Shown here in pieces: positions 852-36,007 of a DNA stretch of 37,100 nucleotides (positions are counted from its first letter, which is position 1; the number at the start of each line of letters is the position of its first letter). A program made the translations under genes and the position numbers. The notes beneath the pieces were generated by a model. That model was not told the origin of the DNA and did no database searches. It worked only from the letters and a program-made list of their open reading frames with translations. The stretch comes from an uncultured Saprospiraceae bacterium (GTDB taxonomy: Bacteria; Bacteroidota; Bacteroidia; Chitinophagales; Saprospiraceae), in NCBI GenBank assembly GCA_938041445.1, contig CALISO010000080.1:1-37100 (forward strand). The letters run 5' to 3'.

Positions 852-883
852 TTCTCTTTCGATTTATATTGAAGCGTTTCTTT

Positions 884-900: not shown

Positions 901-905
901 ATATA
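898..905 (-). promoter_or_regulatory. -7 promoter element of the DUF4625 gene
   Basis: TATATTTG on the minus strand matches the Bacteroidota -7 consensus TAnnTTTG. It would start transcription near 893 and give a leader of about 42 nt. No clear -33 TTG lies at the right distance. The dyad 884-900 overlaps the predicted start site. Confidence 0.5.
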
Positions 906-915
906 GGTCGAAATA

Positions 916-946
916 TTGTTATTGCATCTCAGTTGCATTACTTTTG
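916..946 (+). promoter_or_regulatory. Promoter of the Fur/Zur-type gene
   Basis: TTG (916-918), a 20-bp spacer and TACTTTTG (939-946) match the Bacteroidota -33/-7 pattern. The predicted start of transcription falls at about 950-952, on the ATG at 951, so the message would be leaderless. Confidence 0.6.
922..938. promoter_or_regulatory. Operator-like dyad, probable Zur/Fur site 2
   Basis: TTGCATCTCAGTTGCAT has the same TTGCAn-N5-TTGCAn geometry as sites 1 and 3, with 6 of 8 symmetric pairs. It fills the spacer between the -33 and -7 elements of the repressor's own promoter, which would allow autoregulation. It lies 38 bp centre to centre from site 1. Confidence 0.5.
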
Positions 947-950
947 CTAC

Positions 951-1331
951 ATGGGAATCAAGAGGAAAACAAAATATGTCGAAATGGTGCTTTCTGCATT
1001 CGAAAACTCGCGAAGAGCCCTTTCCGTGGTAGACTTAGTCAAGAGATTTGAAACTGAAATGAATAAGACTACAGTCTATCGGGTACTAGAACGACTTCAA
1101 GATGATGGTGAGTTGCATTCTTTCACTGGTAAGGATCGTCTCAAATGGTTTGCCAAGTACCATAAGCCTGATTCCAATAACACAACGATGACTCATCCAC
1201 ATTTTCAATGTCAAGATTGTGGCAAATCGAAGTGTATCCCTGTAGATATTGCAATTCCGTCTTTACCAAATCACCGCATAGATAGTTCTCACCTATTGTT
1301 CATCGGACAATGCGATGATTGCTTAGCCTGA
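951..1331 (+). CDS. Fur-family metalloregulator, probably Zur
   Basis: A 126-residue protein of the Fur family's usual size. The N-terminal half holds a winged helix with the recognition-helix signature KTTVYRVLERL. The C-terminal half has two CxxC pairs (CQDC and CDDC) that form the structural zinc site in this family, plus histidines for a sensing site. I chose the ATG at 951 over the TTG at 933, because 933 lies inside the promoter. The TonB receptor gene starts 26 bp after its stop and is probably cotranscribed. A His/Asp-rich lipoprotein and a DUF4625 lipoprotein with matching operator-like sites surround it. That favours zinc (Zur) over iron (Fur) or peroxide (PerR), but the metal is an inference. 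Confidence 0.85.
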   Translation: MGIKRKTKYVEMVLSAFENSRRALSVVDLVKRFETEMNKTTVYRVLERLQDDGELHSFTGKDRLKWFAKYHKPDSNNTTMTHPHFQCQDCGKSKCIPVDIAIPSLPNHRIDSSHLLFIGQCDDCLA

Positions 1332-1357
1332 CATCTACATCTAACAATCGATACTGA

Positions 1358-3727
1358 ATGAAATACTACTTCAACATCCTGCTCCTACTGCTCACAACAC
1401 AACTTGTGGGACAGATAGATGGTGTTGTGGAAGGGGATCATAGACATCCTTTGATAGGTGCAACTCTTTTGTTGCTTCCTGATAGTGTAGTCACAACTTC
1501 AGATCTGAATGGTCGATTTAGTTTTGATGATTTGACTCCCAAATCCTATGAAATAGAAACAAGCTATCTCGGTTACCAGGTGCAAAAGACAATAGTAGAT
1601 TTGACTAAAGTCAAAAGCTTATCAATTGCAATAGAAATGGAACTTGATAATACTGTTCTAGATGCGATTGAAATTTCTGAGGAGCATGCTAAGCAAGAAG
1701 AAACATTGCAGACTGAACATGTTCACGAAGATTTCTTCCAAAAGTATCTGGAAGGTACACTTGCGCAAACACTAGAAAAACTGCCAGGTATCAGTGCAAT
1801 CAATGTCGGCGTGGGGATAGCCAAACCAGTGATCAGAGGCCTTTCGGCAAATCGGATAATCGTGAATCATAATGGGATCAAGCAAGAGAGCCAACAATGG
1901 GGCAGTGATCATGGCCTAGAGATAGATCAGTTTGACGTAGAAAGAGTTGAAGTGATCAAAGGACCAGGCTCTCTTCAATACGGATCAGACGGCCTAGGTG
2001 GAGTCATCAATATCATGCCTGACAAACTCCTTCCAAAAAATAGCTTCGCAGGGAGTATTCAAGGAATATACAAGTCAAATAATGAACACTGGGGTAGCTC
2101 AGCAAAGATGGGAATCAACATCGATAATTGGTTCTTGACTGGACGTTATTCACGACAAGACTTTGCTGACTATCAGGTACCAGCGACAACATTCAATTAC
2201 AATGGATTTGAATTACCAATTGTCAACAATCGTCTTAAGAATACAGCTGCTAACGAATCCAATGTTAGCATCTCTACTGGTGTGAGTAGAGATTGGGGAA
2301 TTACCCGATTGCACTATAGTCACTATTCCCTAGAAGCAGGCTTATTTAGTGGAGCAGTGGGGATTCCTCGATCATTTGCCTTGACAGATGATGGTAACTA
2401 TCGTGACTTAGATGTACCGCGTCAGAATGTAGACCACTACAGAATGACATTAAATCAATCTTTCTTCTTTGGAAGTAATCATCTAGTATTTGACATAGGG
2501 TGGCAGAAAAATCTGAGACAGGAATTATCCGAACCAGAATTCCATAGTATCCCTCTTACACAGCTTGAAGATCCTAATGATAAGTTGGCCATTCAATTGG
2601 AATTAGAGACATTTTCGTTTGCTTCTCACTATGAGCATCACGGAGAAGATTGGAAGCAGATAATAGGTATGAGTAGTCAATGGCAGCAAAATCAACGAAG
2701 TGGCTTCGAATATCTACTTCCCGATTTTAAGACATTCAGAGGTGGAATTTACTCTATTGCCGAACGAGAAATCACACATGATTGGCTAGTACTTGGAGGT
2801 GTGAGAGCTGATATTGGTCAAAATGAGACAGAATTCTTTCGCCAGTACGTTTGGGACAGTAACGAAACTATCATAGACTCACTAGTGTCTCCGTCAACTG
2901 ATGATCTATTCTTTAATTGGTCAGCTTCTATAGGGACAAATCTGACTTTGATGGAAGGTAAATGGACCTTAAAGGCAAATCTTGGACGTAGTTTCAGAGT
3001 ACCCTACCCTTCAGAGACTGTTTCTAATGGTATTCATCATGGGACATTTCGACATGAAGTCGGTACACCTAACTTAAAGTCAGAGCATGGCTATCAGCTT
3101 GATCTTGGAGGCTACTGGAATTATGAAACATTTAGTGGAAGCATAGCTGTCTACTTCAATTACTTTAGCAACTATATCTACTTGGGCCCAACATTCCCGG
3201 CACAATTTTCTCGATTACCTGAGGCAGGTCAAATCTTCCAATATCGACAAGACAATGCAATCTACACTGGATTTGAATTACAATGGGATTGGGATTTATC
3301 AAGACGATTTGAGTTGGCGCAAGCCGTAGACTTTGTACAGAGTTACAACCCCGAGACGAGGTTAGCGCTACCGTTCACACCACAACCATCTATAAAGACA
3401 GATTTTAAGTGTGATTTATTTGAGCAATCATGGATGGAAGACACGTACTTTGAACTGTCACACCAATACTATTTTGCCGCTAAAGGCAGACTTAGAATTG
3501 ATCGATCAGAACTCGCCACGCCAGCATATCAATTGTGGGGAATAGGTGCTGGATCAACATTAATTCTTGGAGGACAACATATAGATTTGAATGTACAAGT
3601 GCTCAATTTATTAGACAAAAGTTACTTAGCACACTTAAGTAGATATCGGATTATCAATGTGCCAGAGCAAGGAAGGAATATCGTTGTAAGGTTAAAGATT
3701 CCCTTTGAGGGTAAAATAAAAAAGTAG
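1358..3727 (+). CDS. TonB-dependent outer-membrane receptor, probable metal uptake
   Basis: A 789-residue TonB-dependent receptor that would import a substrate across the outer membrane using TonB/ExbBD energy. In order it has a signal peptide (about 1-18), a carboxypeptidase-regulatory-like domain (about 19-105), a plug domain (about 120-225, with TLEKLPGI, VIRGLSANRI and VEVIKGPGSLQYGSDGLGG) and a 22-strand-type barrel to the C-terminus. The plug contains QQWGSDHGLEID. From memory this resembles plug loops in a subgroup that includes ZnuD-like receptors. There is no STN domain, so it should not signal through FecR. It follows the Fur/Zur-type gene by 26 bp, probably in one transcript. Metal uptake is inferred from this context; the exact substrate is unproven. 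Confidence 0.85.
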   Translation: MKYYFNILLLLLTTQLVGQIDGVVEGDHRHPLIGATLLLLPDSVVTTSDLNGRFSFDDLTPKSYEIETSYLGYQVQKTIVDLTKVKSLSIAIEMELDNTVLDAIEISEEHAKQEETLQTEHVHEDFFQKYLEGTLAQTLEKLPGISAINVGVGIAKPVIRGLSANRIIVNHNGIKQESQQWGSDHGLEIDQFDVERVEVIKGPGSLQYGSDGLGGVINIMPDKLLPKNSFAGSIQGIYKSNNEHWGSSAKMGINIDNWFLTGRYSRQDFADYQVPATTFNYNGFELPIVNNRLKNTAANESNVSISTGVSRDWGITRLHYSHYSLEAGLFSGAVGIPRSFALTDDGNYRDLDVPRQNVDHYRMTLNQSFFFGSNHLVFDIGWQKNLRQELSEPEFHSIPLTQLEDPNDKLAIQLELETFSFASHYEHHGEDWKQIIGMSSQWQQNQRSGFEYLLPDFKTFRGGIYSIAEREITHDWLVLGGVRADIGQNETEFFRQYVWDSNETIIDSLVSPSTDDLFFNWSASIGTNLTLMEGKWTLKANLGRSFRVPYPSETVSNGIHHGTFRHEVGTPNLKSEHGYQLDLGGYWNYETFSGSIAVYFNYFSNYIYLGPTFPAQFSRLPEAGQIFQYRQDNAIYTGFELQWDWDLSRRFELAQAVDFVQSYNPETRLALPFTPQPSIKTDFKCDLFEQSWMEDTYFELSHQYYFAAKGRLRIDRSELATPAYQLWGIGAGSTLILGGQHIDLNVQVLNLLDKSYLAHLSRYRIINVPEQGRNIVVRLKIPFEGKIKK

Positions 3728-3754
3728 GCTGCCGCATTATGCGAATCAGCCTAC
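3719..3754 (-). terminator. Rho-independent terminator of the His/Asp-rich lipoprotein gene
   Basis: GTAGGCTG (3724-3731) pairs with CAGCCTAC (3747-3754), with a small inner stem in the loop. On the minus strand the stem is followed by six T. It overlaps the last codons and stop of the TonB receptor gene, so the two converging genes share this sequence. Confidence 0.7.
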
Positions 3755-3784
3755 CTACTAAATATTCGTTCTATTTAAAAACTA

Positions 3785-4207
3785 CTACAAACAAAATTCA
3801 GTTGTGGCAGTAGAGGTCTCTTCACAATCGTGATCAACACATGCAAGTACTTTTAGTACGAAACATGTACCAGTTGGGAAACTACATAAGTCTACATCCT
3901 GCTCAAATAAAATCTCAGCATCATGCTCGTGCATATCAATGTCTAAAATCTCTACCTCTGTATCACGTTCGTACATTACGATTTCTACTTCGTGATTCTC
4001 AACCGAAGCAATAACATCAACATGTATGTGTACATCAGCACAGTCAGCAATCGTTCCTCCATCAGTAGGAGATTGAATGGTAACTGTGACCATATTATCA
4101 TCGTGATCATCGTCGTGATCATCCGCATCATCATCACATGCTACAGCACACATAGCCAGTGCAACGAATATAAATAGATAGTAAAACTTGAAGTTTTGTA
4201 AAGCCAT
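3785..4207 (-). CDS. Small His/Asp-rich lipoprotein, putative metal binder
   Basis: A 140-residue lipoprotein. A signal peptide ends at a cysteine near residue 24 (AVAC), followed directly by an acidic/histidine tract (DDDADDHDDDHDDN). The rest has an Ig-like look, with more His/Asp/Glu clusters (HIHVDV, DMHEHDAEI) and CVDHDC near the end. Such clusters commonly bind zinc, copper or calcium. It converges on the TonB receptor gene. Its promoter overlaps an operator-like dyad nearly identical to the one next to the Fur/Zur-type gene, so it probably belongs to the same regulon. I do not recognise a named family. A surface or periplasmic metal store or chaperone feeding the receptor is my inference. 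Confidence 0.75.
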   Translation of the reverse strand: MALQNFKFYYLFIFVALAMCAVACDDDADDHDDDHDDNMVTVTIQSPTDGGTIADCADVHIHVDVIASVENHEVEIVMYERDTEVEILDIDMHEHDAEILFEQDVDLCSFPTGTCFVLKVLACVDHDCEETSTATTEFCL

Positions 4208-4355: not shown

Positions 4356-6443
<2,088 letters not shown>

Positions 6444-6544
6444 TTATCCTTCTCAATTGCAGAGCATAAAGTTTCTAGAGGATTTGCTACATTTGGAAAA
6501 GTCATTGCCGACTATGACACCACAAAATCTGTAATAAATTGTCT

Positions 6545-7369
6545 ATGGATTCTCTACTAAGCGTATTCGAAAATATGTCCAGTCTTAATAAAGTGATTTG
6601 GATTTTTGCCTGTCTATCTATAAGTTGGTTATTGGAATTTGGAATTCCACTAAGAAAGGAATCATACAACAAACTTGGTCACATAGGACGTAACCTCATC
6701 TTTCTCTCTACATCGATGTTAGTTAATATTCTATTTGGGTTGGCTACAGTGGGGGTCTTCTTTTGGCTTGATGCCAATCAATTTGGATTGCTCAATTGGA
6801 TAGCGTTGCCTATTCTGTTAGAGATATTGATTGCAGTGATGGCTCTTGACTTTTTTGCACAATATATCTCACACACCCTACTCCATAAAGTATCATGGAT
6901 GTGGAAGTTCCACCTAGTGCATCATAGTGATACAATAGTAGATGCGACAACTGGAACTAGACATCATCCGGGAGATTATCTGATTAGAGAGCTCTTTGCA
7001 TTAGTAGCGATAGTCGTATTCGGCATACCGATTGGAATCTATGTGCTTTATCGGTTCTTGACCATTGCATTCACCTACATAACTCATGCGAATATCAACT
7101 TACCAGTAGCGGTTGACAAAGCCATCAGTTATGTATTCATCTCCCCTAATATGCATAAGTTTCATCATCATTATGAGAGACCTTGGACTGACACAAATTT
7201 TGGCAATATCTTTTCGATATGGGATCGTCTATTTGGCACATTCGTCTATGCAGATGTGAGTCAGATCAAGTATGGAGTCGATGTCCTCGATGACGCGACA
7301 AGTGATAAAGTGGGATACCAATTTGGTTTACCTTTCAACTCGAATGTAAAAACGGATAAAAGTAAGTAA
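6545..7369 (+). CDS. Sterol desaturase / fatty acid hydroxylase family membrane protein
   Basis: A 274-residue integral membrane protein with four or more hydrophobic segments. It has the histidine boxes of the di-iron fatty acid hydroxylase superfamily: HTLLH, HLVHH, a following RHHP, and MHKFHHHY near the C-terminus. Members hydroxylate or desaturate lipids, sterols or carotenoids using O2. I start at the ATG at 6545 rather than the TTG six bases earlier. It lies 101 bp after fadH in the same direction and converges on an SCP2 lipid-binding gene, so a lipid substrate is likely. The exact substrate cannot be told from sequence. Confidence 0.85.
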   Translation: MDSLLSVFENMSSLNKVIWIFACLSISWLLEFGIPLRKESYNKLGHIGRNLIFLSTSMLVNILFGLATVGVFFWLDANQFGLLNWIALPILLEILIAVMALDFFAQYISHTLLHKVSWMWKFHLVHHSDTIVDATTGTRHHPGDYLIRELFALVAIVVFGIPIGIYVLYRFLTIAFTYITHANINLPVAVDKAISYVFISPNMHKFHHHYERPWTDTNFGNIFSIWDRLFGTFVYADVSQIKYGVDVLDDATSDKVGYQFGLPFNSNVKTDKSK

Positions 7370-7391
7370 TCACATCTGTATAGATTTTGTA

Positions 7392-7685
7392 TTATTTCAA
7401 CAGTGATTGAAGCTTCATTGCGAGCCCCATATCTCCTTTGATTTTGATCTTTCCACCCATTACTGCCATCATCGGATTGAGTTCTCCTTTCGTAAGCTTT
7501 GTGAGTGTTTCAATAGTAGTCGTTATTGTAGCATCTGCGTCTTTATCGTCTTGACTGACAACATTCTCCTCTCCAGTACCATCAATGTATACGGGGTTGT
7601 CATCCAAGACAAACTTTATCGTACCACCAATTGGCTCTGCATTAGCTCCTTGCTCTTTGAATTTTTCGACTATTGCATCCATCAT
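7392..7685 (-). CDS. SCP2 sterol-binding domain protein
   Basis: A 97-residue protein consisting of a single SCP2-like domain. Typical features are the central strand region GTIKFVLDDNPVYIDG, the DADATITTTIETLTKLTKGELNP segment, and the C-terminal MGGKIKIKGDMGLAMKLQSLL helix. SCP2 domains bind acyl-CoAs, sterols or other lipids in a hydrophobic tunnel and usually act in the cytoplasm. It has no signal peptide. A second ATG lies one codon further in. It converges on the hydroxylase gene with 22 bp between stops. A role in lipid handling beside FadH and the hydroxylase is inference. Confidence 0.85.
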   Translation of the reverse strand: MMDAIVEKFKEQGANAEPIGGTIKFVLDDNPVYIDGTGEENVVSQDDKDADATITTTIETLTKLTKGELNPMMAVMGGKIKIKGDMGLAMKLQSLLK

Positions 7686-7828
7686 AAGTAATCCTTTTTA
7701 ATTTATTCTATTTGATATTATACTACACATAAACTCTGAACAGATTAATAAGTTCCACTTATTATAAGTCACAGTTACAAATGTGAGACTAACTGCTCAA
7801 TTTAATCGATGATTTAATCATCTGTTGC

Positions 7829-10237
7829 TTATACCCACTTTGGAATCCAAGCAATCAAGACTTCATCAACTTTAATATTTGCCTTAGTCGGTTTGATAAG
7901 TTTTTCTTCTATTCCTTCTTCAATTACTTGCCACTCAGTTCTGAGTTTATTAATTTTTTCATTGAGTTCTTGCTCTAGATCAGCATATTGCATATTCAGC
8001 ACTTCGATATCTTCTTGAGATTCTGCAAGTTTTTCTCTTGCTTTTCGTGCCATCCGTCTTTTGGTCGCTGCAGTGGATAATGACCTTGATCGACCTCCAA
8101 GAATCGAAACAAGTAGTCCACCTACATTCATCAATTCATCTGTTCGACGACCTCTTAAGTCTGCTCTAGCCTCATCATAGTCTCTCTCCTCTTTACGAAT
8201 CTTCTCATTGATCTTGTCAAACTTAGCTTCATATTTATCCTTGAGATCATCAATCTTCTGATCTCTAATTTCCTTAATCCGATGGTTGACTTCAGCCTTG
8301 AAAGAAGAATCATCTTGACCTGTCTGTTGAGTCAGTTTCAATTTAGGATGATTGAGAACACTGTGTCGCTTCTCCGTGTAAAGGTAGTTCGCAAATTCAC
8401 CCTCAACTTGCTTTAGCATCTTCGAAGAATTCATTGTTTCTGGGATATCTGCATACCTAGTCTCTACAGCCTGAATGTCGACTGGCTCAGCACGCAACTT
8501 AGTCTCCCAATCTGCAAGTTGCTTTGCCACTTCCCAATTAATCCTTCCAAAATCATCCGGAGCTGGACACAACATATTGTAATTTTTTATAATATCTATG
8601 CCTTTACTATTATCATTGAATCGCACCTTACCTATGGCAAATACAACTGGTCGATAATGTAATGTTCCTGAACCGTCTCTAGGTATTAAGAATCGTTGAT
8701 TGATACCAGGAGCCATTGATGGTGGCCCAGCAGATATATCTGATTGTGACTTCAATGTTGAAGTTGTTGAATCAGCATTTGTAATCTCAAAAGGGATATC
8801 TTCTGTTTTTTGCAAATCAGACTTTTTGGTTGCCATTAACCCTTTGATCTGCGGTTTAGTCAATGGCCCTCTGAGATATGACATCACCCATCGTGTATTG
8901 AAAATTACTGGCTCGCCAGCATGAACATTATGCAATAAAAACACTCTACTATCTAGCTGGGATATGATCTTATCAAAATCCATCTCACTATTACCACCAG
9001 CTTCAGCGATCGCACCTTCGAGTCCATCTTTCACTCTCTCTTTATCTCGTTCTGTTTGCAACTTTCCTATGAACCACGTACCCGCGTTACTCAAACCTTT
9101 ATAATCAATGTCTACGGGATTCTGGGTCACTAGAACTGCTCCGACACCATAAGCTCTTGCTTGCTTCAAGATTGTGAGCAGTGGCTTTTTGGAAGGAGGA
9201 TTAGCCGTAGGAGGAAAGTATCCGAATATCTCATCAAAGTACAAGAGACTTCTCAATGATGTTGTACCTGACTGACTTCGCATCCATGTGATCAATGAGT
9301 TGAGTAATAATGTCACGAAGAACATACGTTCTGATTCACTCAAGTGGGCAATATAGATGATGCTGTGTCTAGGCTTCCCTTCTGAGGTAAAATATAGTTT
9401 CTGTATATCTAGCGGTTCACCTTCTAACCAATATCTAAACTGTGGAGATGCAACCAAGGTATTGAATTCCATCGCCAATTCAAATCGTTCCTTAGAGGGG
9501 TAAAAAGTTTCAATATCGAAGACCCCTAGTTTTGTAACAGGAGGTTTCTGAATCGCCATAATCACTTTAGCGATATCTAGATCTTCTCCATTTCTCCAAT
9601 AATGTTCAAAAATATTGGCAAGAAGTATTCCTTCCCTACTTTTTACTGGATCCTCCTTACTACCAATCATCCCCAGCAATGCGGCGCTAATTCCTTGTAT
9701 CTTCTCAAACATCATCTCAGGATCATCATCAAAGTCCACCTTAGGTGCTGCGAATGAACCTAGAATATTGATTGGCATTCCTGCATTTGACCCAGGTGTA
9801 AAAATTGTATAATCTACTGATTGTCCTAAATCTCTTATTCTATCCTTTCCTTGTCCCCAAGTATTAAGACCTTCCTCCCAAGTTCTAGCAATCTTAGTAG
9901 CGTATTCATCTACCGTCAGTCCCTTTCTAGAGGCATCTCCATCATTAATCCATTGTTTGAAATCCTCAGGGGCAAGATTCTCAAATTGCAACATTAGATT
10001 CGTCATATCACCCTTAGGGTCTATGATTATTGCTGGCACTTGATCAATAGCAGCCTCTTCTAATAATCCGATACACAGACCTGTCTTACCACTACCTGTC
10101 ATACCTACACATACTGCATGAGTTGTCAAGTCTCGTGCATCATAGTTAATAACCTCATCAGATAGCTTCCCTGAGTCAAGATTGTACTCCGCTCCTAAGT
10201 AAAATGATCCAAGTTTTTCAGGTGGAAGACTTATCAT
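7829..10237 (-). CDS. HerA-like DUF87-type ATPase with coiled-coil tail
   Basis: About 802 residues from the ATG at 10237. A longer frame begins at 10297, but its extra 20 residues look unrelated and hydrophobic. Near the N-terminus VGMTGSGKTGLC is a Walker A motif and AIIIDPKGDMTNL follows it. LLYFDEIFGYFPP is the Walker B region, and QARAYGVGAVLVTQNP is the sensor segment typical of HerA/FtsK-class ATPases. The last 200 residues are a long charged coiled coil interrupted by a Gly-rich patch (GGLLVSILGGRSRS), ending in a small beta-type segment. HerA-class enzymes pump or translocate DNA, but no nurA, mre11 or defence partner is adjacent. The role is unknown, and it is probably a stand-alone gene. 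Confidence 0.8.
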   Translation of the reverse strand: MISLPPEKLGSFYLGAEYNLDSGKLSDEVINYDARDLTTHAVCVGMTGSGKTGLCIGLLEEAAIDQVPAIIIDPKGDMTNLMLQFENLAPEDFKQWINDGDASRKGLTVDEYATKIARTWEEGLNTWGQGKDRIRDLGQSVDYTIFTPGSNAGMPINILGSFAAPKVDFDDDPEMMFEKIQGISAALLGMIGSKEDPVKSREGILLANIFEHYWRNGEDLDIAKVIMAIQKPPVTKLGVFDIETFYPSKERFELAMEFNTLVASPQFRYWLEGEPLDIQKLYFTSEGKPRHSIIYIAHLSESERMFFVTLLLNSLITWMRSQSGTTSLRSLLYFDEIFGYFPPTANPPSKKPLLTILKQARAYGVGAVLVTQNPVDIDYKGLSNAGTWFIGKLQTERDKERVKDGLEGAIAEAGGNSEMDFDKIISQLDSRVFLLHNVHAGEPVIFNTRWVMSYLRGPLTKPQIKGLMATKKSDLQKTEDIPFEITNADSTTSTLKSQSDISAGPPSMAPGINQRFLIPRDGSGTLHYRPVVFAIGKVRFNDNSKGIDIIKNYNMLCPAPDDFGRINWEVAKQLADWETKLRAEPVDIQAVETRYADIPETMNSSKMLKQVEGEFANYLYTEKRHSVLNHPKLKLTQQTGQDDSSFKAEVNHRIKEIRDQKIDDLKDKYEAKFDKINEKIRKEERDYDEARADLRGRRTDELMNVGGLLVSILGGRSRSLSTAATKRRMARKAREKLAESQEDIEVLNMQYADLEQELNEKINKLRTEWQVIEEGIEEKLIKPTKANIKVDEVLIAWIPKWV

Positions 10238-10467
10238 AATATGAGATTTATTTGTTATATGTAAAGTCAAAAATAAGTGATTTGATATCGAAAACAAAAC
10301 TTATTCTTACTCGACAAAGTAAGATATATACTAATGAGAACCATAAACATACATATGTTAAAATCTTTAATCGCAGAAGAACAAACTTATCATATTAGAT
10401 AAAATTATTATATATTACAGGTTGTTATTAAAGCATCTATTGTTGAATGCCAAAACTTCTAAGAAAT

Positions 10468-10899
10468 ATGAAGACTTATCAAGCTAAATCAAACAGTAAT
10501 ATCATAAAGCTCCTTATCACAGCTATTATACTATTGGCCGGCATAATGCTTATTAATGATAGTGCAATCACGAGTAGATGGTGGGTACTGCTTGGGTTAA
10601 TCCTGCTACCAATGATTCTGGTATATCATGCGATGAGAAATACCTATTATCAAATATTCGAAGAATACATTACTTATCAATCTGGTCTTATGAAAGGCAA
10701 AATTTATATCCCAAGAATCACGATGATTGAAAAAGGTAAATATCTCAATGGGATAGCTGCAAAAGCTGCTCTCACTAAGCAAGGTGGAATGATCCTACAT
10801 TACAATAAGTATAGCAAGTTATACATTGCACCAGAGAACGTAGAAGAACTTGTTGAAGATATCCTAGCTATCAAACCTGATATCTTAGTGACAGGATAG
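10468..10899 (+). CDS. Small membrane protein with bacterial PH-like domain
   Basis: A 143-residue protein from the ATG at 10468; an ATG at 10447 would add seven residues. Two membrane helices (about residues 12-31 and 38-55) are followed by a soluble domain. Its pattern, TYYQIFEEYITYQSGLMKG then KIYIPRITMIEKGKYL, matches the small bacterial PH (bPH_4, DUF1200-like) family. Function in this family is not established; members are thought to face the cytoplasm. It is monocistronic, converging on the FG-GAP protein gene. Family recognition is moderate. Confidence 0.65.
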   Translation: MKTYQAKSNSNIIKLLITAIILLAGIMLINDSAITSRWWVLLGLILLPMILVYHAMRNTYYQIFEEYITYQSGLMKGKIYIPRITMIEKGKYLNGIAAKAALTKQGGMILHYNKYSKLYIAPENVEELVEDILAIKPDILVTG

Positions 10900-10912
10900 A
10901 ACAGAATCTAAA

Positions 10913-10948
10913 ATGCCTACATCAGCTCGTTAATTCTGATATAGGCAT
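10913..10948. terminator. Hairpin between convergent genes, probable bidirectional terminator
   Basis: ATGCCTACATCAG pairs with CTGATATAGGCAT with one mismatch and a 10-nt loop. It lies between the stops of the PH-domain gene and the FG-GAP gene. A TTTT follows on the minus strand; the plus side has only a broken T-run. Confidence 0.55.
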
Positions 10949-10995
10949 CTTATCTAATCTTAGTAAAGTGTATCGTTACAGCTTTATCTTTAAAA

Positions 10996-13821
10996 TTAAT
11001 TCTTTGTAAACGTTGAGATGTATTGAGTACTCTCATCAATTAGCTTGATGACGTATTGTCCACTTGGCCAGTTCCCAATATTAATATTTTGATTTAGATT
11101 CAGATCTCTAGCACTGAATACTTGCTTACCCATTGAGTTATAAATTGCTAGCCTATTGCTCGTTGACAATTGATTCTCACTTAAGTTAAATCTAATAGAA
11201 GCTGTAGCTGGATTTGGCATCACATTTAAGCTAGACTTATCTACCTTCAAATTATCCGTACTAGATATGACTACAGATAAGTTATATTCCAGAATATCGC
11301 TCATACAGCCTTGATGAGGCTCCTCTACTACCCAATTGTAAAAATAGAAGTATACGGATGGGAATGTACTATTAGTTACCGTCAACCAAGAATCATAATT
11401 TAGTGGATATCCAGGATTGAATGAAATACTGAACCTCGGATCAACAGTTCCAAATGAAGTCATATTTACATCTTCATCAGTAGTCATCCGATAGAACTGA
11501 CCATCTTCCATAAACCAATTCACCTCGATGGTTTGAAGCCCTACTTCTTGTATATCAACCATTGTACGACCAGCTTCCTCACCTTGACTATTTAATAAAA
11601 CTAGCTCTCTTACACCCGTTTCTAAGACATCAACATCAACAGTCTTGAGTATTAGATCTCTCTGAGGATTGATAAATGTCAATCCATTGATGCCTGTGGT
11701 ATTCTCTATTAGATTCGTTTCTTCGATGTCAAGTCCAACAGTAAATGAAGGTACCTGTAGGTCAGGAATAATATTGAAATAAAATGTTGTATCTACTGGT
11801 TCGTTAATTGTTACTGGTAGTTGAGCACCTTCTCCTAATCGATCCAATCCCGCTTCATCACTATACCATACAGTACCTTCATTTTCAGATTGTAGAAATA
11901 TTTCACCAGCAGCTTGCGAATCAGATATAGGAACTAAACCGCTAAAATTCAAGAATGTTACGTCATATTCTTCAGAAGAAAAAGACCCACATTCAGTCAT
12001 TAATGATGCTTGTAAAGTCGTAGACTCTTGAACAATTAATGCCTGTGACAAAACACCATCTTGCCATTCTATCTCATCGTAATTCAAGACTTGTACAGTA
12101 AAGAAGTCGCCATCACACAAGATGATATCATCTTGAATATTCAGTATCGGTGCATCTCTGTCAGGCACACTATGTAGTGCTAGCGTATTCGTTGGGAGAT
12201 TACAATCATTAGTCAATGTGCCCTGGTAGACTCCACTTTCATTCACATTAATACTTTGTCCAGTCGCGCCAGTATCCCAGTCAATTGATGCTGTACTCAA
12301 TATCTCAATAGACTCTACGCCTTCTTCGCAGATAATTGGGACACCTGCAGTTGATAGTACTGGTAGTACATTGAGACATTCTCCTTCAACAGCTAATAAA
12401 TGTGTATCCGCAGCAATATCAGTATAAGTATCAACCTGACCTGATGGCCATTCTATTGTCATCGATTGTACACTAGTCAATTGACCAAGACCAAAATGTT
12501 GATTACCAGTGTTCTGAATACTATATGATGTACCAGCTGAACTCAATCGTACCTGTGTCCCCTCTGTTGTGACAATTGAAACCTTAGTTCCTATGGCTTG
12601 TCTGTTGGACTCTACACCTTGAAGTGAAACAGTAAGGTAATGGTTATCATTTCCTTGATTGACATGGACAATATCAGGATTGCCACTCACTCCTGCGAGT
12701 GCATTAGCACCAGTATACAAATCCATAAAGCCATCTTCATTAACATCACCATATGCTGCTGAGGCAAAATAGTCGAAAGTAGTACTATTAACAAGTGGAA
12801 GGAAGTTTCCATCAGTATTGTAATAAATAATAGGAGTATTACCTGCGACTATTAAGTCTACCCAACCGTTATTATCAAGGTCAGTAGCGAGAGCTTGATA
12901 ACCAAGACCATTATTTGGGACAAGGTCTCTAAACTCTGTATCCTCAGTGAACACACCATTACCATCATTGTAGAATAATTGATTGCCAAAATCATGGTTG
13001 ACTAGGAATAAGTCCAGATCACCATCACGATCAACATCGGCAAAGTCTGATGCCCATGATTGCTCACCTATCGCAATATTTCTTATCGCCGCTTCTTCAG
13101 TGAATGTTCCATCTCCATTATTGACAAACAAGGCATTGATTCTTCTAGGATCTGAAGATGATTGTACACCTAGTCGACACTTGACAATGTAGAGATCTAG
13201 ATCACCATCACCATCGATATCAGTCCAGTTACTACCATAGTTTCCAGAATCATCACTAGCTGGAGTAGTCCGCATATCTATCATATCGCTTTCATCAACA
13301 AGGACACCTGTGCCATCATTGATAAAAATGGAAGATAACCCATCATCATTGCAGATAAATAAGTCAACAAATCCATCATTATTAATGTCTGCAATACTGA
13401 ATGCTTGTGCAAAAATATTGGCGTTGAGTTGTTGTGACAATACGTAAGTCCCATTAATCATTTTATAGATTGCAACGCCATCATAAAATCCTGAGAAAAA
13501 TAACTCAGCAGTGCCATCATTATCTAAATCTGCAGCTCCATTGGCCCACGGGTCATTAATCGCTTGATCAAAAGCCGCATTGAGAAAAAGACTGTCGTTC
13601 GCTTGACTGTGAGTATATTGGAAGACGTCTCCGTCTGCAACAAGCAAAATGTCATCGCGGAAATCTCCATTCATATCGGTGAATACCTTTGGAATAAAAG
13701 ACACTTCATCAGTATTATTGAGATGGTATCCGCTACCTTCAAAAGTAACTTGTGCAGCTGATTCGACTGCTCCGCATGCAAGTAGAAGTGCTACACCAAC
13801 TAACTGTAAAACCTGTTTCAT
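10996..13821 (-). CDS. Secreted FG-GAP/VCBS repeat protein with UnbV domain and type A sorting domain
   Basis: A 941-residue exported protein. A signal peptide covers about the first 23 residues. At least seven FG-GAP/VCBS calcium-loop motifs follow (such as DMNGDFRDD, DINNDGFVD, DIDGDGDLD, DVDRDGDLD, DVNEDGFMD), which would build a beta-propeller. An ASPIC/UnbV domain comes next (AIGTKVSIVTTEGTQVR...FGLGQLTSVQSMTIEWPSG). The last 80 residues, with NVMPNPATASIRFNLSE and GQYVIKLID, are a type A sorting domain for the type IX system, so the protein should be released or anchored at the cell surface. Its start lies 5 bp after the stop of an upstream gene on the same strand, so the two are probably cotranscribed. 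Ligand or function is unknown; adhesion or carbohydrate binding is only a guess. Confidence 0.9.
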   Translation of the reverse strand: MKQVLQLVGVALLLACGAVESAAQVTFEGSGYHLNNTDEVSFIPKVFTDMNGDFRDDILLVADGDVFQYTHSQANDSLFLNAAFDQAINDPWANGAADLDNDGTAELFFSGFYDGVAIYKMINGTYVLSQQLNANIFAQAFSIADINNDGFVDLFICNDDGLSSIFINDGTGVLVDESDMIDMRTTPASDDSGNYGSNWTDIDGDGDLDLYIVKCRLGVQSSSDPRRINALFVNNGDGTFTEEAAIRNIAIGEQSWASDFADVDRDGDLDLFLVNHDFGNQLFYNDGNGVFTEDTEFRDLVPNNGLGYQALATDLDNNGWVDLIVAGNTPIIYYNTDGNFLPLVNSTTFDYFASAAYGDVNEDGFMDLYTGANALAGVSGNPDIVHVNQGNDNHYLTVSLQGVESNRQAIGTKVSIVTTEGTQVRLSSAGTSYSIQNTGNQHFGLGQLTSVQSMTIEWPSGQVDTYTDIAADTHLLAVEGECLNVLPVLSTAGVPIICEEGVESIEILSTASIDWDTGATGQSINVNESGVYQGTLTNDCNLPTNTLALHSVPDRDAPILNIQDDIILCDGDFFTVQVLNYDEIEWQDGVLSQALIVQESTTLQASLMTECGSFSSEEYDVTFLNFSGLVPISDSQAAGEIFLQSENEGTVWYSDEAGLDRLGEGAQLPVTINEPVDTTFYFNIIPDLQVPSFTVGLDIEETNLIENTTGINGLTFINPQRDLILKTVDVDVLETGVRELVLLNSQGEEAGRTMVDIQEVGLQTIEVNWFMEDGQFYRMTTDEDVNMTSFGTVDPRFSISFNPGYPLNYDSWLTVTNSTFPSVYFYFYNWVVEEPHQGCMSDILEYNLSVVISSTDNLKVDKSSLNVMPNPATASIRFNLSENQLSTSNRLAIYNSMGKQVFSARDLNLNQNINIGNWPSGQYVIKLIDESTQYISTFTKN

Positions 13822-13825
13822 AAAA

Positions 13826-14383
13826 TTAATTTTTCTGCTTTTCCTCTTTATTAAATTTCGACTTTATATTGTCAAAGAAATTGTTGAGCTTTTTGTTTTT
13901 GCGCTTGACGATAATATACCGAACACTGAGAGCAGTTGATGGAATTACGCGTCTACCGGACACTTCACCCAATGCTAAGGACGGTTGTATGTCAAATCCG
14001 ATATGCAAATTGGTAAACACTACCTCTGCTCCTATCATCATTGGTATCGTAAATGCTCTTTCTATCACTTTTCTATCATCATCTAAACTGGTAACATGAC
14101 CAAGTCCGATCCCAGTGTAGATATTCAATCGTCGAGTAATCATATTAGAGTGACGTTTGACGATAAGATCAATATTCCGGTTATCATCTAGAACAGCATC
14201 TCTATAGAGACCTTCCAAAGTTACCCGCTTGGCTACTCGCTGAACTACACTAATGCCAATATCAGTGCCCGCTCTTAATCCTAGTGTCGTATCATAGGCT
14301 TGAGACCAGGCAACGTTATTACTACTGCATACAAAAATCAGGCAAAGGGTTAATACGATATGTTGCAAAATAAGAAACTTCAC
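13826..14383 (-). CDS. Small exported protein, putative outer-membrane beta-barrel
   Basis: A 185-residue protein starting at a GTG (14383); an in-frame stop lies just upstream and no ATG precedes the signal peptide. A signal peptide covers about residues 1-27. After it, alternating hydrophobic/polar strands (DTTLGLRAGTDIGIS, RLNIYTGIGLGHVTS, LHIGFDIQPSLALGE, STALSVRYIIVKRK) look like an eight-strand outer-membrane barrel. The C-terminus is unusually basic (KRKNKKLNNFFDNIKSKFNKEEKQKN), which is odd for a barrel end. It precedes the FG-GAP gene by 5 bp. The start codon is 9 bp from the divergent methyltransferase start. No named family recognised. Confidence 0.6.
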   Translation of the reverse strand: MKFLILQHIVLTLCLIFVCSSNNVAWSQAYDTTLGLRAGTDIGISVVQRVAKRVTLEGLYRDAVLDDNRNIDLIVKRHSNMITRRLNIYTGIGLGHVTSLDDDRKVIERAFTIPMMIGAEVVFTNLHIGFDIQPSLALGEVSGRRVIPSTALSVRYIIVKRKNKKLNNFFDNIKSKFNKEEKQKN

Positions 14384-14392
14384 TTAAAGATT

Positions 14393-15259
14393 ATGAAACG
14401 GTTTATTACATTTGGTAATGCCAAAACAACAAGATCAACTTTGAGTATTCTTTTCAGGTATCTAAGGTACTACATAAATGCGAAAACTGCCTACCAAATC
14501 CATTCGCCATTTCTATATCAGTTTATAAACGAATGTATTATAGATAACAATTTCTACTATATATTCAACCATATTGATGAAATGCATCAAGCTCTACTCC
14601 AAGATCAGTCCGAAATCCAGTTGATCGACTATGGAGCAGGGTCTCGTAAAACGGACAATACCACTATAGCTTCCATTGCAAAGAACGCGACTTCACCATC
14701 CTGGAAGGGTATTCAACTTTATCATATTGCCCGTTTTATACAACCAAAGGTAACCCTTGAACTTGGTTCAAATCTAGGTATAGGCACAGCCTATCTTGCC
14801 GCACCAGTCAATACTAATACCGTATTCACCATTGAAGGAGATCCAAGTTTACACAAGTATGCTAACCAACACTGGCAAAAACTGGAAATCGAAAATATCC
14901 GATCATTCTGCGGAGAATTCTCTGCAACTTTACCCCTTCTATTAAGTGAGATGGATGATCCAATTGATCTTGTATATCTTGATGGTAACCACAGAAAGGA
15001 TGCAACAATTGCCTATGTAGAGCAAATACTACCCTATCTATCATCAAAGGGAGCAATCATTGTTGATGATATTCAATGGTCTAGCGGTATGATTGCAGCT
15101 TGGGAGGAATTGATCACGATTTCAAAATTTTGCTACAGCATCAATCTTGGACAATATGGTGTGTTGTTCTGGGACGAAACTCAGTCATATCCAAATCAAC
15201 ATGTGACTTACATTAGTTACAAATACAAACCTTGGAAAATTGGATTATTTGCGCATTAG
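14393..15259 (+). CDS. SAM-dependent methyltransferase
   Basis: A 288-residue class I methyltransferase from the ATG at 14393; an earlier ATG at 14360 would overlap the divergent gene. Motif I is TLELGSNLGIGTAYLA (SAM-binding glycine loop), the acidic residue follows in TVFTIEGDP, and IDLVYLDGNHRKDATIAYV plus IIVDDIQWSSGM give later motifs. It belongs to the Methyltransferase_24 (O-methyltransferase-like) type. An upstream helical region with YQIHSPFLYQFI is typical of the Bacteroidota branch, by recall. The substrate is unknown. The last 4 bp overlap the end of the converging S24 regulator gene. Confidence 0.8.
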   Translation: MKRFITFGNAKTTRSTLSILFRYLRYYINAKTAYQIHSPFLYQFINECIIDNNFYYIFNHIDEMHQALLQDQSEIQLIDYGAGSRKTDNTTIASIAKNATSPSWKGIQLYHIARFIQPKVTLELGSNLGIGTAYLAAPVNTNTVFTIEGDPSLHKYANQHWQKLEIENIRSFCGEFSATLPLLLSEMDDPIDLVYLDGNHRKDATIAYVEQILPYLSSKGAIIVDDIQWSSGMIAAWEELITISKFCYSINLGQYGVLFWDETQSYPNQHVTYISYKYKPWKIGLFAH

Positions 15260-32937: not shown

Positions 32938-34014
32938 ATGAGGACTCTAGTAATTATCTCCATTTTTCTTCTAACTCTTTTGTCCTGCGATCGTCAAGTG
33001 AATAATCACTCACCTGCGGATAAGGCTCTAATGGCTGAGATCTACTATAATATTGATACTTCAAAAATTGAAAACTTTAATATCAACTGCAGTATTCGGG
33101 CTATTTTTCCATTGAGTGCTGACGAATGTTGGTTTGCAGGATCTCGAGGTCAATTTGGTTTTACAAGGGATAGAGGTCAAACATGGCATATAGACAGCAT
33201 CCAACACGCCGATCAACCTCAATTAGAATTTCGTTCTATTGCGATTACTGAAGAAGCGGTGCTTTTATTGTCCGTTGGTTCACCAAGTCTTCTATATCGA
33301 ACGATTGACGAGGGAACGTCCTGGGAAGTTGTATACCGCGAAAACGATTCATTAGCATTTTACGACTCAATGGGTTTTTGGAATGATCAAGAAGGAATAG
33401 CCATAGGAGACCCCACAGAATCTTGTATGTCCATCATCCTTACAAGTGATGGGGGAAAAAACTGGACGAAAGTCCCTTGTGATCGCCTGCCAAAGACATT
33501 GAAGGGTGAAGCAGCTTTTGCAGCCAGCAACAGCAATTTGAGTCTGTACGGTGATAATGTCTGGGTAGTCAGTGGAGGTGCAAAGGCTCGAGTCTTTCAT
33601 AGTCCAGATAAAGGTCAAAGTTGGAAAGTCTATCAGACACCAATTATTGAAGGAGGCACGATGACTGGCATCTTTTCATGTGATTTCTATAATGAAAGCA
33701 CTGGCGTAATCATAGGAGGTAACTGGGAAGATATGAACGTAAGTTCTGAGAATAAGGCCATCACACATGACGGTGGCAAGAACTGGCAATTATTAGCAAA
33801 TGGTGAATCGCCAGGATATAGATCATGCGTCCAGTATTTAAGCGATACCTCACCTAATTCTATGATTGCCGTAGGTATTCCCGGTATATCTATCACCAAC
33901 GACGGTGGCATGACCTGGGAAGATGTATCGAGCCAATCATTTTATACAGTTAGAAGAGCAGAACATATGCTATGGTTCGGTGGAAGGAATAAGATGGCTA
34001 GAGTAGAAATGTAA
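32938..34014 (+). CDS. BNR/Asp-box beta-propeller lipoprotein (Ycf48-like)
   Basis: A 358-residue lipoprotein with lipobox LLSC (Cys17) and a propeller of sialidase-type Asp-box repeats: FTRDRGQTWHID, RTIDEGTSWEVV, LTSDGGKNWTKV, HSPDKGQSWKVY, THDGGKNWQLL and TNDGGMTWEDV. Such proteins are often annotated as oxidoreductase or glycosyl hydrolase from these repeats, but the Asp boxes are structural. Ycf48/HCF136, which help assemble photosystem II, have the same architecture, so an assembly or binding role is possible. No catalytic sialidase residues are visible. It is followed by the tRNA-His repeat region. Confidence 0.82.
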   Translation: MRTLVIISIFLLTLLSCDRQVNNHSPADKALMAEIYYNIDTSKIENFNINCSIRAIFPLSADECWFAGSRGQFGFTRDRGQTWHIDSIQHADQPQLEFRSIAITEEAVLLLSVGSPSLLYRTIDEGTSWEVVYRENDSLAFYDSMGFWNDQEGIAIGDPTESCMSIILTSDGGKNWTKVPCDRLPKTLKGEAAFAASNSNLSLYGDNVWVVSGGAKARVFHSPDKGQSWKVYQTPIIEGGTMTGIFSCDFYNESTGVIIGGNWEDMNVSSENKAITHDGGKNWQLLANGESPGYRSCVQYLSDTSPNSMIAVGIPGISITNDGGMTWEDVSSQSFYTVRRAEHMLWFGGRNKMARVEM

Positions 34015-34138
34015 AGGAAGAATACGCATCCGAGTTTATTCACCAGGTGCTACCATCTAAGGGATTCTCCCTTGATTGCATAAGACTCGGTCATAGACTG
34101 TAGCAACATCTTCGGGAGGCCTTGATGAGTGTACCAAA

Positions 34139-34197
34139 CTTCGTGTGGAAGATGGGTTGACTTTCAGTTAATCATATGAGGGAGAGCCTAGAAGCTT
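34139..34197. repeat. tRNA-His 3'-end relic R1 with element-like flank
   Basis: The first 20 bases differ at one position from the tRNA-His 3' end plus flank (35886-35905). The next 40 or so, through GACTTTCAGTTAA and on to AGCCTAGAAGC, also resemble R4 at 35718-35772, so R1 and R4 share more than the tRNA core. Confidence 0.65.
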
Positions 34198-34272
34198 TGA
34201 AAACTCACTATCGTTTGTTTTTAAATTAATCTTATCCTATAACAATCCATGTTTGCGTCGGATAAGGGCATC

Positions 34273-34302
34273 AAAAAAAGCCTTGTCCATTGACAAGGCT
34301 TT
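34273..34302 (-). terminator. Terminator attached to relic R2
   Basis: AAAGCCTTGTC pairs with GACAAGGCTTT around a 4-nt loop; on the minus strand the stem runs into seven T. It directly follows the tRNA-His relic R2 in the minus-strand reading direction, as the real tRNA's terminator follows the tRNA. Confidence 0.75.
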
Positions 34303-34307
34303 CAAAG

Positions 34308-34327
34308 CTTCGGGTGGAAGATGGGTT
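34308..34327. repeat. tRNA-His 3'-end relic R2
   Basis: On the minus strand AACCCATCTTCCACCCGAAG is identical over 20 bases to the end of the tRNA-His gene plus its 3' flank. The sequence beyond the T-arm is unrelated to tRNA. Confidence 0.75.
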
Positions 34328-34378
34328 TTGCTGCGCAGAACCCTGAAGTGGGGTCGCGAAATAAGAACAGACCTTCAC

Positions 34379-34455
34379 AAGCAAAGCTTGATGCCATCCT
34401 GATCAAACAAAAAACCCTGCCAATTGGCAGGGTCTGTTCTTATTTCGGGTGGAAG
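34379..34455. repeat. Left copy of 77-bp direct repeat
   Basis: Matches 35822-35898 at 76 of 77 bases, in the same orientation and exactly 1443 bp apart. It contains the tRNA-His terminator and the last 9 bases of the tRNA acceptor (relic R3), then diverges where the right copy continues into the tRNA. Confidence 0.9.
34408..34433 (-). terminator. Duplicate of the tRNA-His terminator
   Basis: ACCCTGCCAATTGGCAGGGT is a perfect 20-bp palindrome followed by a T-run on the minus strand. It is the same sequence as the tRNA-His terminator at 35851-35876. Confidence 0.8.
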
Positions 34456-34596
34456 GCAGGACAGTCTACGAACCCGACAAAAGAGTGATCTAACTACTAT
34501 CGCAACTCTGCTATTTCAGATAGCGAACGTCGCATGAAAGACTTACGCTTTCTCCAACTTAATGATATCTGAACCAATATGATTACTAGTAGATTT

Positions 34597-35457
34597 CTAA
34601 TATTCATATCCATTCCACATCCATGGGTTAGATTCAGACCCAGGATACGCAACATAGTGTAAACGACAATTGAATAGTTTCTTCATTCCTTCTAAGTCCA
34701 TGAAACCCACAAGATTAGTTCCTTTGTTTTCAGTAGTAGCCCCAAATTTGGAGAGATATAGATTATCGCCTACATAAATTGCCCAATGCCTTACAGTTCC
34801 TTTAGGGTTTTCATCGCAAGGAAAATTTAATTCACCAGTTGTAAGTACTACAACTTCACCGACGGCTGGCTCTTTATTTTTTTGAAGATCAAAATCGTCG
34901 CAAGACCAAGCCGACTCAACATTTACCAGTTGTCTGGTAAAAGATTGGCAGTCATATCGATGAAATTTTACTTTGTTATGCTCTATATCTTGCTTAAAAA
35001 AATTCAATAGCCTTAGATTGTAGTTAAAGGGTAAGTCTATGATGACCTCTTTTTCTTTGACTTTTGAAGTAACACGAACTTTACTGAAAATATTTGGACT
35101 CTCTAAATTGAACACTGGCATAATCTCCTTTCTAATAACCCATCCTGGTATATTCTCCTTTCCAATAACCCAACTATTATATAGCACCTTTAATCTTATC
35201 TGAAACTCCTTGAGTGTAAAAAACAGAAACCCATCAGGACTTTCTTTAAAAGGCACAAAAACTATAGCACGAGGGCCATAGGCTTTATTTCCATTTACAG
35301 TTTCTTCTTCTATCAGTATGTCTGGCGACACTTGAATAACAATTGTTTCAGGATCCGAAAAAGAAGTTGAGATCCCGACTTTTTGACAAAGCACAATATT
35401 CTGTGCTAAAATTAGAGTTACTATAATTTTTAAGCAATTCACCTCTCTATAGTTCAT
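34597..35457 (-). CDS. Secreted protein with possible NlpC/P60- or CHAP-like motifs
   Basis: A 286-residue protein with a signal peptide (about 1-25). The first two-thirds is beta-rich and unrecognised. The last third has YDCQSFTRQLVN, then EVVVL and RHWAIYVGDNLYLSKFGAT. That is a Cys-before-His order with strand context like papain-fold NlpC/P60, CHAP or LRAT-type hydrolases, so Cys and His may be catalytic. A 10-residue tandem duplication is visible (WVIGKENIPG then WVIRKEIMP), matching a 30-bp DNA repeat. The gene lies alone between the two copies of the 77-bp direct repeat beside tRNA-His and is more AT-rich than its neighbours, suggesting transfer. Function is unproven. Confidence 0.6.
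   Translation of the reverse strand: MNYREVNCLKIIVTLILAQNIVLCQKVGISTSFSDPETIVIQVSPDILIEEETVNGNKAYGPRAIVFVPFKESPDGFLFFTLKEFQIRLKVLYNSWVIGKENIPGWVIRKEIMPVFNLESPNIFSKVRVTSKVKEKEVIIDLPFNYNLRLLNFFKQDIEHNKVKFHRYDCQSFTRQLVNVESAWSCDDFDLQKNKEPAVGEVVVLTTGELNFPCDENPKGTVRHWAIYVGDNLYLSKFGATTENKGTNLVGFMDLEGMKKLFNCRLHYVAYPGSESNPWMWNGYEY
35120..35172. repeat. 30-bp tandem duplication inside the secreted gene
   Basis: Bases 35120-35142 and 35150-35172 match at 21 of 23 positions with a 30-bp period, keeping the frame and adding 10 residues. It looks like a recent slippage duplication. Confidence 0.7.
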
Positions 35458-35662
35458 AAAAATGCTTTTATGCCTAAAATTACATATTAATGTCTCATAA
35501 TATAATTATGTATGATATATATGTTCCCAATAATATGACCGAGGATAAATCGATTTATTACTAAAATTAAAGATTTTTTGCCATCAAAAAATTTGATATA
35601 TAGAAGCTGATAAATAATATAAGACCTCGCATGAAAGAGATTCGAGGTGCGACAAGCTATAA

Positions 35663-35697
35663 ATGTAAGTAATTGACAGAATATCAATTACTTACAT
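35663..35697. repeat. Perfect 14-bp inverted repeat
   Basis: ATGTAAGTAATTGA and TCAATTACTTACAT are exact reverse complements separated by 7 bases, and lie 20 bp from relic R4. No T-run follows, so a protein-binding or recombination site is more likely than a terminator. Confidence 0.65.
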
Positions 35698-35717
35698 ATT
35701 ATAAATTTATTTAATAT

Positions 35718-35772
35718 GGGTGGAAGATGGGTTTACTTTCAGTGAACCCTTTGAGGGTGGGCCTCGAAGCTC
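35718..35772. repeat. tRNA-His 3'-end relic R4 with element-like flank
   Basis: GGGTGGAAGATGGGTTT equals the acceptor/T-arm end of the tRNA-His gene read on the plus strand. The following 38 bases (ACTTTCAGTGAACCC and on) resemble R1. On the minus strand the T-arm looks widened by an insertion between GGGTT and AACCC. Confidence 0.7.
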
Positions 35773-35821
35773 AAACAGCCCCTCACTTCGTTCGTCTTTT
35801 TATTTGTCCTTCCTGTCATCC

Positions 35822-35898
35822 AAGCAAAGCTTGATGCCATCCTGATCAAACAAAAAACCCTGCCAATTGGCAGGGTCTGTTCTTACTTCGGGTGGAAG
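35822..35898. repeat. Right copy of 77-bp direct repeat, running into tRNA-His
   Basis: Right partner of 34379-34455. It covers the tRNA-His terminator and the last bases of the tRNA acceptor stem. Confidence 0.9.
35851..35876 (-). terminator. tRNA-His terminator
   Basis: A 20-bp palindrome (ACCCTGCCAATTGGCAGGGT) followed by six T on the minus strand, 14 bp after the tRNA 3' end. Confidence 0.8.
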
Positions 35899-35965
35899 AT
35901 GGGTTTCGAACCCACGGCCTCCGGAACCACAATCCGGCGCTCTAACCAGCTGAGCTACAACCACC
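35891..35965 (-). tRNA. tRNA-His (GTG anticodon)
   Basis: The minus strand folds as a tRNA: D-arm GCTC-AGCTGGTTA-GAGC, anticodon arm CCGGA-TTGTGGT-TCCGG with anticodon GTG, and T-arm GTGGG-TTCGAAC-CCAT. The extra 5' G opposite C73 is the tRNA-His hallmark. CCA is not encoded. The acceptor stem has two adjacent U-U mismatches (5' strand GTGGTTG against CTTCCAC); a normal gene would end CAACCAC or similar. Multiple copies of this 3' end lie downstream. It may still be functional, or its 3' end was replaced during an insertion event. Confidence 0.9.
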
Positions 35966-35976
35966 ATAAGGAGGTG

Positions 35977-36007
35977 CAAAGAAAGCGAACTATTTAATCA
36001 ATCACAA
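35977..36007 (-). promoter_or_regulatory. Probable tRNA-His promoter
   Basis: On the minus strand TTG (36007-36005), a 20-bp spacer and TTTCTTTG (35984-35977), one base off TAnnTTTG. Transcription would start about 8 bp before the tRNA. Confidence 0.4.

Follow-up and report, generated by a model that had tools for sequence, protein, structure and literature searches.

How does a single intact tRNA gene come to be followed by several fragments of its own 3′ end? The question is raised by a 37,100-nt stretch of DNA from an uncultured Saprospiraceae bacterium (the window; contig C80 of the 146-contig, 3.35-Mb genome G000), in which a tRNA-His gene is trailed by four partial copies of its 3′ end, R1 to R4. 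Read in the direction of the tRNA, the order is tRNA-His, unit A (172 bp), R4, unit D (1271 bp), R3, unit B (135 bp), R2, unit C (169 bp), and R1. ARAGORN found no other tRNA in the window, and comparison of the array region with Rfam returned nothing besides the tRNA over the cut-off. By analogy with loci in the same genome and in its relatives, where small GIY-YIG nuclease genes lie beside tRNA genes and broken copies of them, we give about even weight to the idea that tRNA-His underwent a series of nuclease-type invasions whose stacked footprints make up the array.

Anatomy and distribution of the tRNA-His array

The 14-mer core of the repeated end, GTGGAAGATGGGTT, is matched exactly at four sites genome-wide, each of them in the array (tRNA-His, R1, R2, and R4). 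Elsewhere in the genome it has three one-mismatch sites, and a reversed control pattern gave four matches with up to one mismatch. The 16-mer GGGTGGAAGATGGGTT matched four times in the window with up to three mismatches (tRNA included) against 0.19 expected, and none of 100 shuffles reached four. The copies that a preliminary description of this DNA had placed at 34139, 34308, 34445, and 35718 are therefore real, with R1 having been started a few bases too early.

The T region of tRNA-His reads GGGTTC-G-AAACCCATCTTCCACCC. In R2 and R4, nine nucleotides stand between GGGTTC and AAACCCATCTTCCACCC; these inserts (TGCGCAGCA in R2 and ACTGAAAGT in R4) differ in sequence and yet form the same hairpin shape. 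The short copy R3 retains GGGTTCG and TTCCACCC on either side of 14 unrelated bases, and among the long copies decay has gone furthest in R1, which is also the outermost. Strong hairpins with a T run follow tRNA-His and R3, and a strong hairpin that is absent from the terminator-scan listing follows R2; the hairpin after R4 is weaker and has no clear T run, and none after R1 is convincing. This bears out the earlier remark that some copies carry a terminator of their own.

Units A and B have their left ends in common (78 nt at 99% identity including the tRNA end, with 65 of 65 positions identical within the units) and also share their last 17 nt. Units A and C have only their right ends in common, and the flank shared by R1 and R4, previously put at an extra 40 bp, extends over 52 nt at 85% identity, about 38 nt of it beyond the core. 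The spacings of 169 and 172 bp are indeed nearly equal, as had been remarked, but the suggestion that one unit was copied does not hold, since A and C share right ends alone. Pairwise comparison found no two units with the full-length likeness that marks whole-unit tandem duplication. In units B and C, inverted copies of the unit's start sequence sit 46 bp (B) and 48 bp (C) before the right end; unit A has no comparable inverted repeat (the longest is 5), and terminal inverted repeats were rejected as a feature of all units because only B and C have them.

The array was absent from three sister species, in which the final 7.1 kb of the window has no DNA match except tRNAs and one AT-rich 43-nt stretch. 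The first 20 kb of the window match the sister species in long stretches at 68 to 72% identity, so the contig belongs to the genus; an assembly join close to the right end of the contig is possible. A second tRNA-His, on contig C140 (L061), is 84% identical to that of the window over 82 nt and has the same neighbors throughout the genus. The window tRNA-His is an extra, divergent one.

Among 396 genomes of the order, a search restricted to the exact core, and thus blind to arrays built on another one, found no second tRNA-His array. The sequence GGGTGGAAGATGGG occurred in 19 of the 396, largely as chance matches outside tRNAs, and core sites clustered only in the window genome and in G363. The G363 cluster (spacings of 1204 and 170) was rejected as a second array: the region (L092, 8400 to 10050) holds a family of palindromic repeats ~154 to 171 bp apart around a 133-aa open reading frame (ORF), and because the 18 kb read at this locus yielded no tRNA, we set the cluster aside as coincidence. 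We take this ORF, from its resemblance, to be a candidate REP-associated transposase and the repeats to be probably a REP-like family. Besides that of the window, 30 tRNA-His genes were inspected, some with under 1.5 kb of sequence on their downstream side, and one (G012) has a downstream 3′-end copy, of 24 nt. A search with the expanded-T-loop pattern found no array in viral contigs (two stretches) or in the genome_contigs set (four stretches, one of them an ordinary tRNA-His). Both points on which the preliminary description had let its reading depend came out in its favor: the relatives searched showed no such array, and the core is no dispersed repeat of the genome.

Broken tRNA copies and GIY-YIG genes at other tRNA loci

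Partial tRNA copies occur at other tRNA genes as well. The window genome has 33 tRNA genes, and 5 of the 30 loci fetched carry such copies: tRNA-His, -Leu, and -Cys have 3′-end copies downstream, and tRNA-Asp and -Val have 5′-end copies upstream. G001, of the same genus, yielded two convincing copies (tRNA-Arg and tRNA-Met) from 25 loci scanned out of 26 fetched; a third match, at tRNA-Gly (19 nt, generic), was left out of the broken-copy count. Matches were found in 4 of 193 control segments. At seven tRNA loci other than the window array, 8 of 10 copies have their own terminator.

At tRNA-Leu of the window genome, an 82-aa GIY-YIG gene (Pfam E value, 2.2e-17) lies between the tRNA and a broken copy that has its own terminator and in which the anticodon stem-loop is replaced by CCCGATAATATCGGG. 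At tRNA-Arg of G001 (L140), the order is tRNA, GIY-YIG gene, broken copy, 1.2-kb cargo unit, and second broken copy with a terminator. The cargo unit holds a 219-aa ORF without a Pfam match, a DUF2188 gene on the opposite strand, and a remnant of the 3′ end of the GIY-YIG gene. Noncoding mini-units were found too, of 122 bp at tRNA-Pro in G045 and of ~209 bp at tRNA-Cys in the window genome, where tandem units with tRNA-Cys 3′-end pieces run downstream of the tRNA toward the contig start (C37, L127) with no large ORF noted. Upstream of tRNA-Asp and tRNA-Val (L112 and L115, respectively), units of ~180 bp lie between the 5′ tRNA piece and the intact tRNA. The two units are modestly similar: 98 of the 193 columns of their alignment agree, and with the tRNA piece excluded an equally good alignment came from 1 of 1,000 shuffles.

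Matches to PF01541, long UvrC-like proteins included, were present in all 60 relatives searched. We examined 34 GIY-YIG loci, made up of 7 of the 15 from a search of the genus and 27 new loci out of the much longer list from a wider search; the eight genus-search loci left out, in which no tRNA was present, encode long proteins or partial domains. A complete tRNA was present in 15 of the 34, against ~3% expected (an estimate from 33 tRNAs in 3.35 Mb), and a partial copy of the same tRNA was present in 14 of these 15, six by a strict 3′-end test and eight by local alignment; L168, with a 15-nt match only, was counted as lacking a copy. The nuclease gene usually sits between the intact tRNA and the partial copy, in two mirror layouts that differ in whether the copy lies downstream or upstream of that gene. 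At L174 the copy lies upstream of the tRNA and the GIY-YIG gene downstream of it.

An automatic scan of 110 loci found 18 tRNA loci with partial copies. In nine of them, an insert in a tRNA loop forms an unbroken stem of 7 to 12 pairs (for example, TCCCGACTGAGTCGGGA and CCTGCCTGCGCAGGCAGG), in a scan that allowed G-T pairs, counted flanks, had no shuffle control, favored GIY-YIG loci, and overlooks tRNA-Cys. The other nine, the window array included, have no loop palindrome by this test. For eight loop segments from loci other than the window array, 0 to 15 of 1,000 shuffles folded equally well. The simplest reading of the GIY-YIG loci in relatives is a homing-like invasion: after a nuclease has opened the tRNA gene, a cassette inserts and restores the tRNA, and what it displaces stays behind in broken form, often interrupted by a palindrome.

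Origin of the array

Transferred to the window, this reading would have each event open the tRNA gene in a loop, with the left end of the inserted cassette bringing a fresh tRNA 3′ end and terminator; the tRNA would therefore stay whole, and the old 3′ end and terminator would be displaced downstream as a broken copy. The junctions fit insertions in the order C, B, D, A, each presumably at tRNA-His, and the outermost position and decay of R1 are as expected from that order. By analogy with the relatives, the most likely agent of the opening cut would be a small, free-standing GIY-YIG nuclease that targets tRNA genes, and a palindrome in the loop would confer a kind of immunity, making the displaced copies uncuttable. 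The nuclease gene would have been lost from the window array or have acted from elsewhere, leaving three units as noncoding minis and one with a cargo ORF. Because the layout is the same but the nuclease gene is missing and the palindromes are weak, we describe the array as working like the GIY-YIG cassettes, a likeness that suggests membership in the same process, but stop short of counting it as a proven member.

Several observations weigh against an origin by nuclease-type invasion. A tblastn search of positions 33901 to 36000 with four GIY-YIG proteins found no GIY-YIG gene or recognizable remnant in the array (best E value, 0.85). For the mini-palindromes in the T loops of R2 and R4, 43 and 36 of 1,000 shuffles, respectively, folded equally well, and R1 has no fold. 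On the 5′ side, the tRNA homology of R2 and R4 amounts to GGGTTC alone, which is mostly demanded by pairing with AACCC anyway. The automatic scan, which also looked for a second flank, came up with neither flank nor palindrome at the window array, and the same holds for 8 of the 17 remaining tRNA loci that have copies. Nothing like the inverted repeats of units B and C turned up in the other two units of the array, A and D, or in the 10 units tested from other tRNA loci.

Parts of the survey of relatives point the same way. Its GIY-YIG loci are the best-scoring ones, not a random sample, and 19 of the 34 have no complete tRNA. Seventeen of the 19 were tested with 94 tRNA sequences (L158 and L170, which have long frames, stayed in the 34 but not in the test), and 12 showed no tRNA piece. 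Pieces were found in L142, L153, L156, L163, and L164, two of them just 14 to 15 nt long. In the control for this test, 15 of 29 loci had been picked by exact core and are hence uninformative, and 1 of the 14 others had a 14-nt match. Seven of the 19 reach a contig end within ~200 bp of the gene; one of these, L142, has a partial copy and a tRNA-Arg that is cut by the contig end, and it was kept outside the 15.

Integrative elements that use tyrosine integrase att sites at tRNA 3′ ends restore the tRNA when they insert and displace the old 3′ end and its terminator. The main rival, a serious one that we nevertheless consider unlikely, is that the array is a stack of attR scars, left by tyrosine recombinase elements that, one after another, inserted at the 3′ end of tRNA-His, made the tRNA whole again, and later decayed; the hairpins would then be core-type recombinase binding arms. 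As in such elements, direct repeats identical to the tRNA-His 3′ end are present, the identity of 16 to 17 nt ends exactly at the tRNA 3′ end, and the candidate att core would be AACCCATCTTCCACCC. The terminators at most copies, the nested order, and the related right ends of R1 and R4 also favor attR scars, as do four tyrosine recombinase genes (PF00589) elsewhere in the genome. However, the array departs from known integrative elements in that C80 carries no integrase, three of the four units hold no kilobase-sized element, and the T-loop sequence of the tRNA is not preserved in R1, R2, and R4. Three units of 135 to 172 bp with both ends and nothing more would be hard to reach by decay. The preliminary description had seen a resemblance to att-type scars or tandem duplication. 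The derivation from the tRNA and the 3′ stacking of the kind that repeated insertions leave stand; an integrase origin was not established, and simple copying of one unit is unsupported.

Replication errors might instead have produced the array by local duplication or template switching at the hairpin-rich tRNA and terminator, with no mobile element involved. The 78-nt duplication and the inverted copies of unit starts within B and C are what such errors could leave, and among the neighboring tRNA-Cys units two of five are 97% identical. Yet the units of the array share left or right ends and never whole bodies, and unit D adds 1.27 kb of unrelated DNA, so that we judge this origin improbable. 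That the copies are kept for a function, such as small RNAs mimicking the tRNA-His end or extra terminators, finds some favor in the common hairpin shape of R2 and R4 despite their different sequences but is very improbable given that no relative searched has the array and R1 is degenerate.

Among known systems, tycheposons are likewise tRNA-linked cargo elements, and the known ones use tyrosine recombinases. Rickettsia palindromic elements are short palindromes within genes, RNA genes included, unlike the palindromes here, which mark displaced copies of a tRNA whose intact form lies next to them, often with a nuclease gene. The nearest published mechanism is that of SegB, a free-standing GIY-YIG homing endonuclease of T-even phages that is reported to lie often near tRNAs and, in phage T6, to cause tandem amplification of a tRNA region (PMC13096335). 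The likeness lies in the GIY-YIG gene beside tRNAs in relatives and in nuclease-driven tandem repeats of a tRNA region. The phage repeats consist of tRNA-Tyr and segB (PMC13096335), unlike the chromosomal partial copies here, which in relatives are often broken by a palindrome and in the window array come with no nuclease gene. A SegB-type repeat unit, a whole tRNA plus a GIY-YIG gene, was not found, the window having one tRNA and the array no GIY-YIG match.

Returning to nuclease-type invasion, it is possible, if somewhat short of probable, that Bacteroidota host undescribed selfish cassettes that invade tRNA genes. A GIY-YIG nuclease would open a loop, the tRNA would be restored, and a palindrome would protect the displaced copy; the cassettes could stack, gain cargo (the 286-aa ORF of unit D and the DUF2188 gene of G001), and spawn minis (units A to C). 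Among the open-access papers listed in literature searches, none dealt with bacterial chromosomes in which GIY-YIG genes accompany broken tRNA copies. If such cassettes exist, integrase islands are not the only invaders of tRNA genes in this large phylum; nuclease cassettes invade them too, and the broken copies are traces of that conflict. Such cassettes would also explain the many small GIY-YIG genes beside tRNAs and perhaps some of the assembly breaks there. Draft contigs may be liable to break near such repeats.

Features of the array and neighboring sequence

Table 1. Features of the tRNA-His array, with positions in the window
Feature	Position	Strand	Basis or remarks
Intact tRNA-His(GTG)	35890-35964	-	ARAGORN; Rfam RF00005, 59.9 bits
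Terminator T0 of tRNA-His	35849-35884	-	Hairpin/terminator scan; stem 35855-35878
78-nt repeat (tRNA-His end and T0)	35821-35898	-	99% identity to 34378-34455
Unit A, 172 bp	35718-35889	-	No ORF of at least 90 aa
R4	35718-35749	-	GGGTTC-ACTGAAAGT-AAACCCATCTTCCACCC, insert at 35735-35743; broken T arm and acceptor; core 35718-35733, exact over 16 nt
Unit D, 1271 bp	34447-35717	-	
14-bp perfect hairpin after R4	35663-35697		
Orphan 286-aa ORF inside unit D	34597-35457	-	
R3, short acceptor-end copy	34447-34455	-	Preceded by GGGTTCG and 14 unrelated nt
Unit B, 135 bp	34312-34446	-	No ORF of at least 90 aa; left end common with unit A
16-bp perfect inverted repeat of unit B	34431-34446 (left arm), 34358-34373 (right arm)		0 of 2,000 shuffles
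T0 terminator copy after R3	34412-34435	-	
R2	34312-34343	-	GGGTTC-TGCGCAGCA-AAACCCATCTTCCACCC, insert at 34329-34337; core 34312-34327, exact over 16 nt
Unit C, 169 bp	34143-34311	-	No ORF of at least 90 aa; starts with terminator-like hairpin 34277-34302
12-bp perfect inverted repeat of unit C	34300-34311 (left arm), 34191-34202 (right arm)		0 of 2,000 shuffles
R1 and flank common to R4	34143-34196	-	52 nt, 85%; core 34143-34158, one mismatch

The 286-aa ORF of unit D gave a weak NlpC/P60 match (E value, 0.061) that falls under the Pfam cut-off. Neither the remaining genomes of the 60-genome search nor the genome_contigs set yielded a relative, and its fold prediction was unusable (mean predicted local distance difference test score, 29).

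At the start of unit D, an AT-rich 22- to 23-mer (35696 to 35718) is shared exactly with contig C94, where it lies upstream of a tyrosine recombinase gene, and with contig C24. Similar stretches also occur in relatives.

In the sister species G003, a tRNA-His on contig C43 adjoins the orthologue of the window ORF at 4428 to 6443, and window positions 1 to 4200 match another contig, C6. A rearrangement breakpoint (window 4428 to 15259 versus C43 of G003) may coincide with a tRNA.

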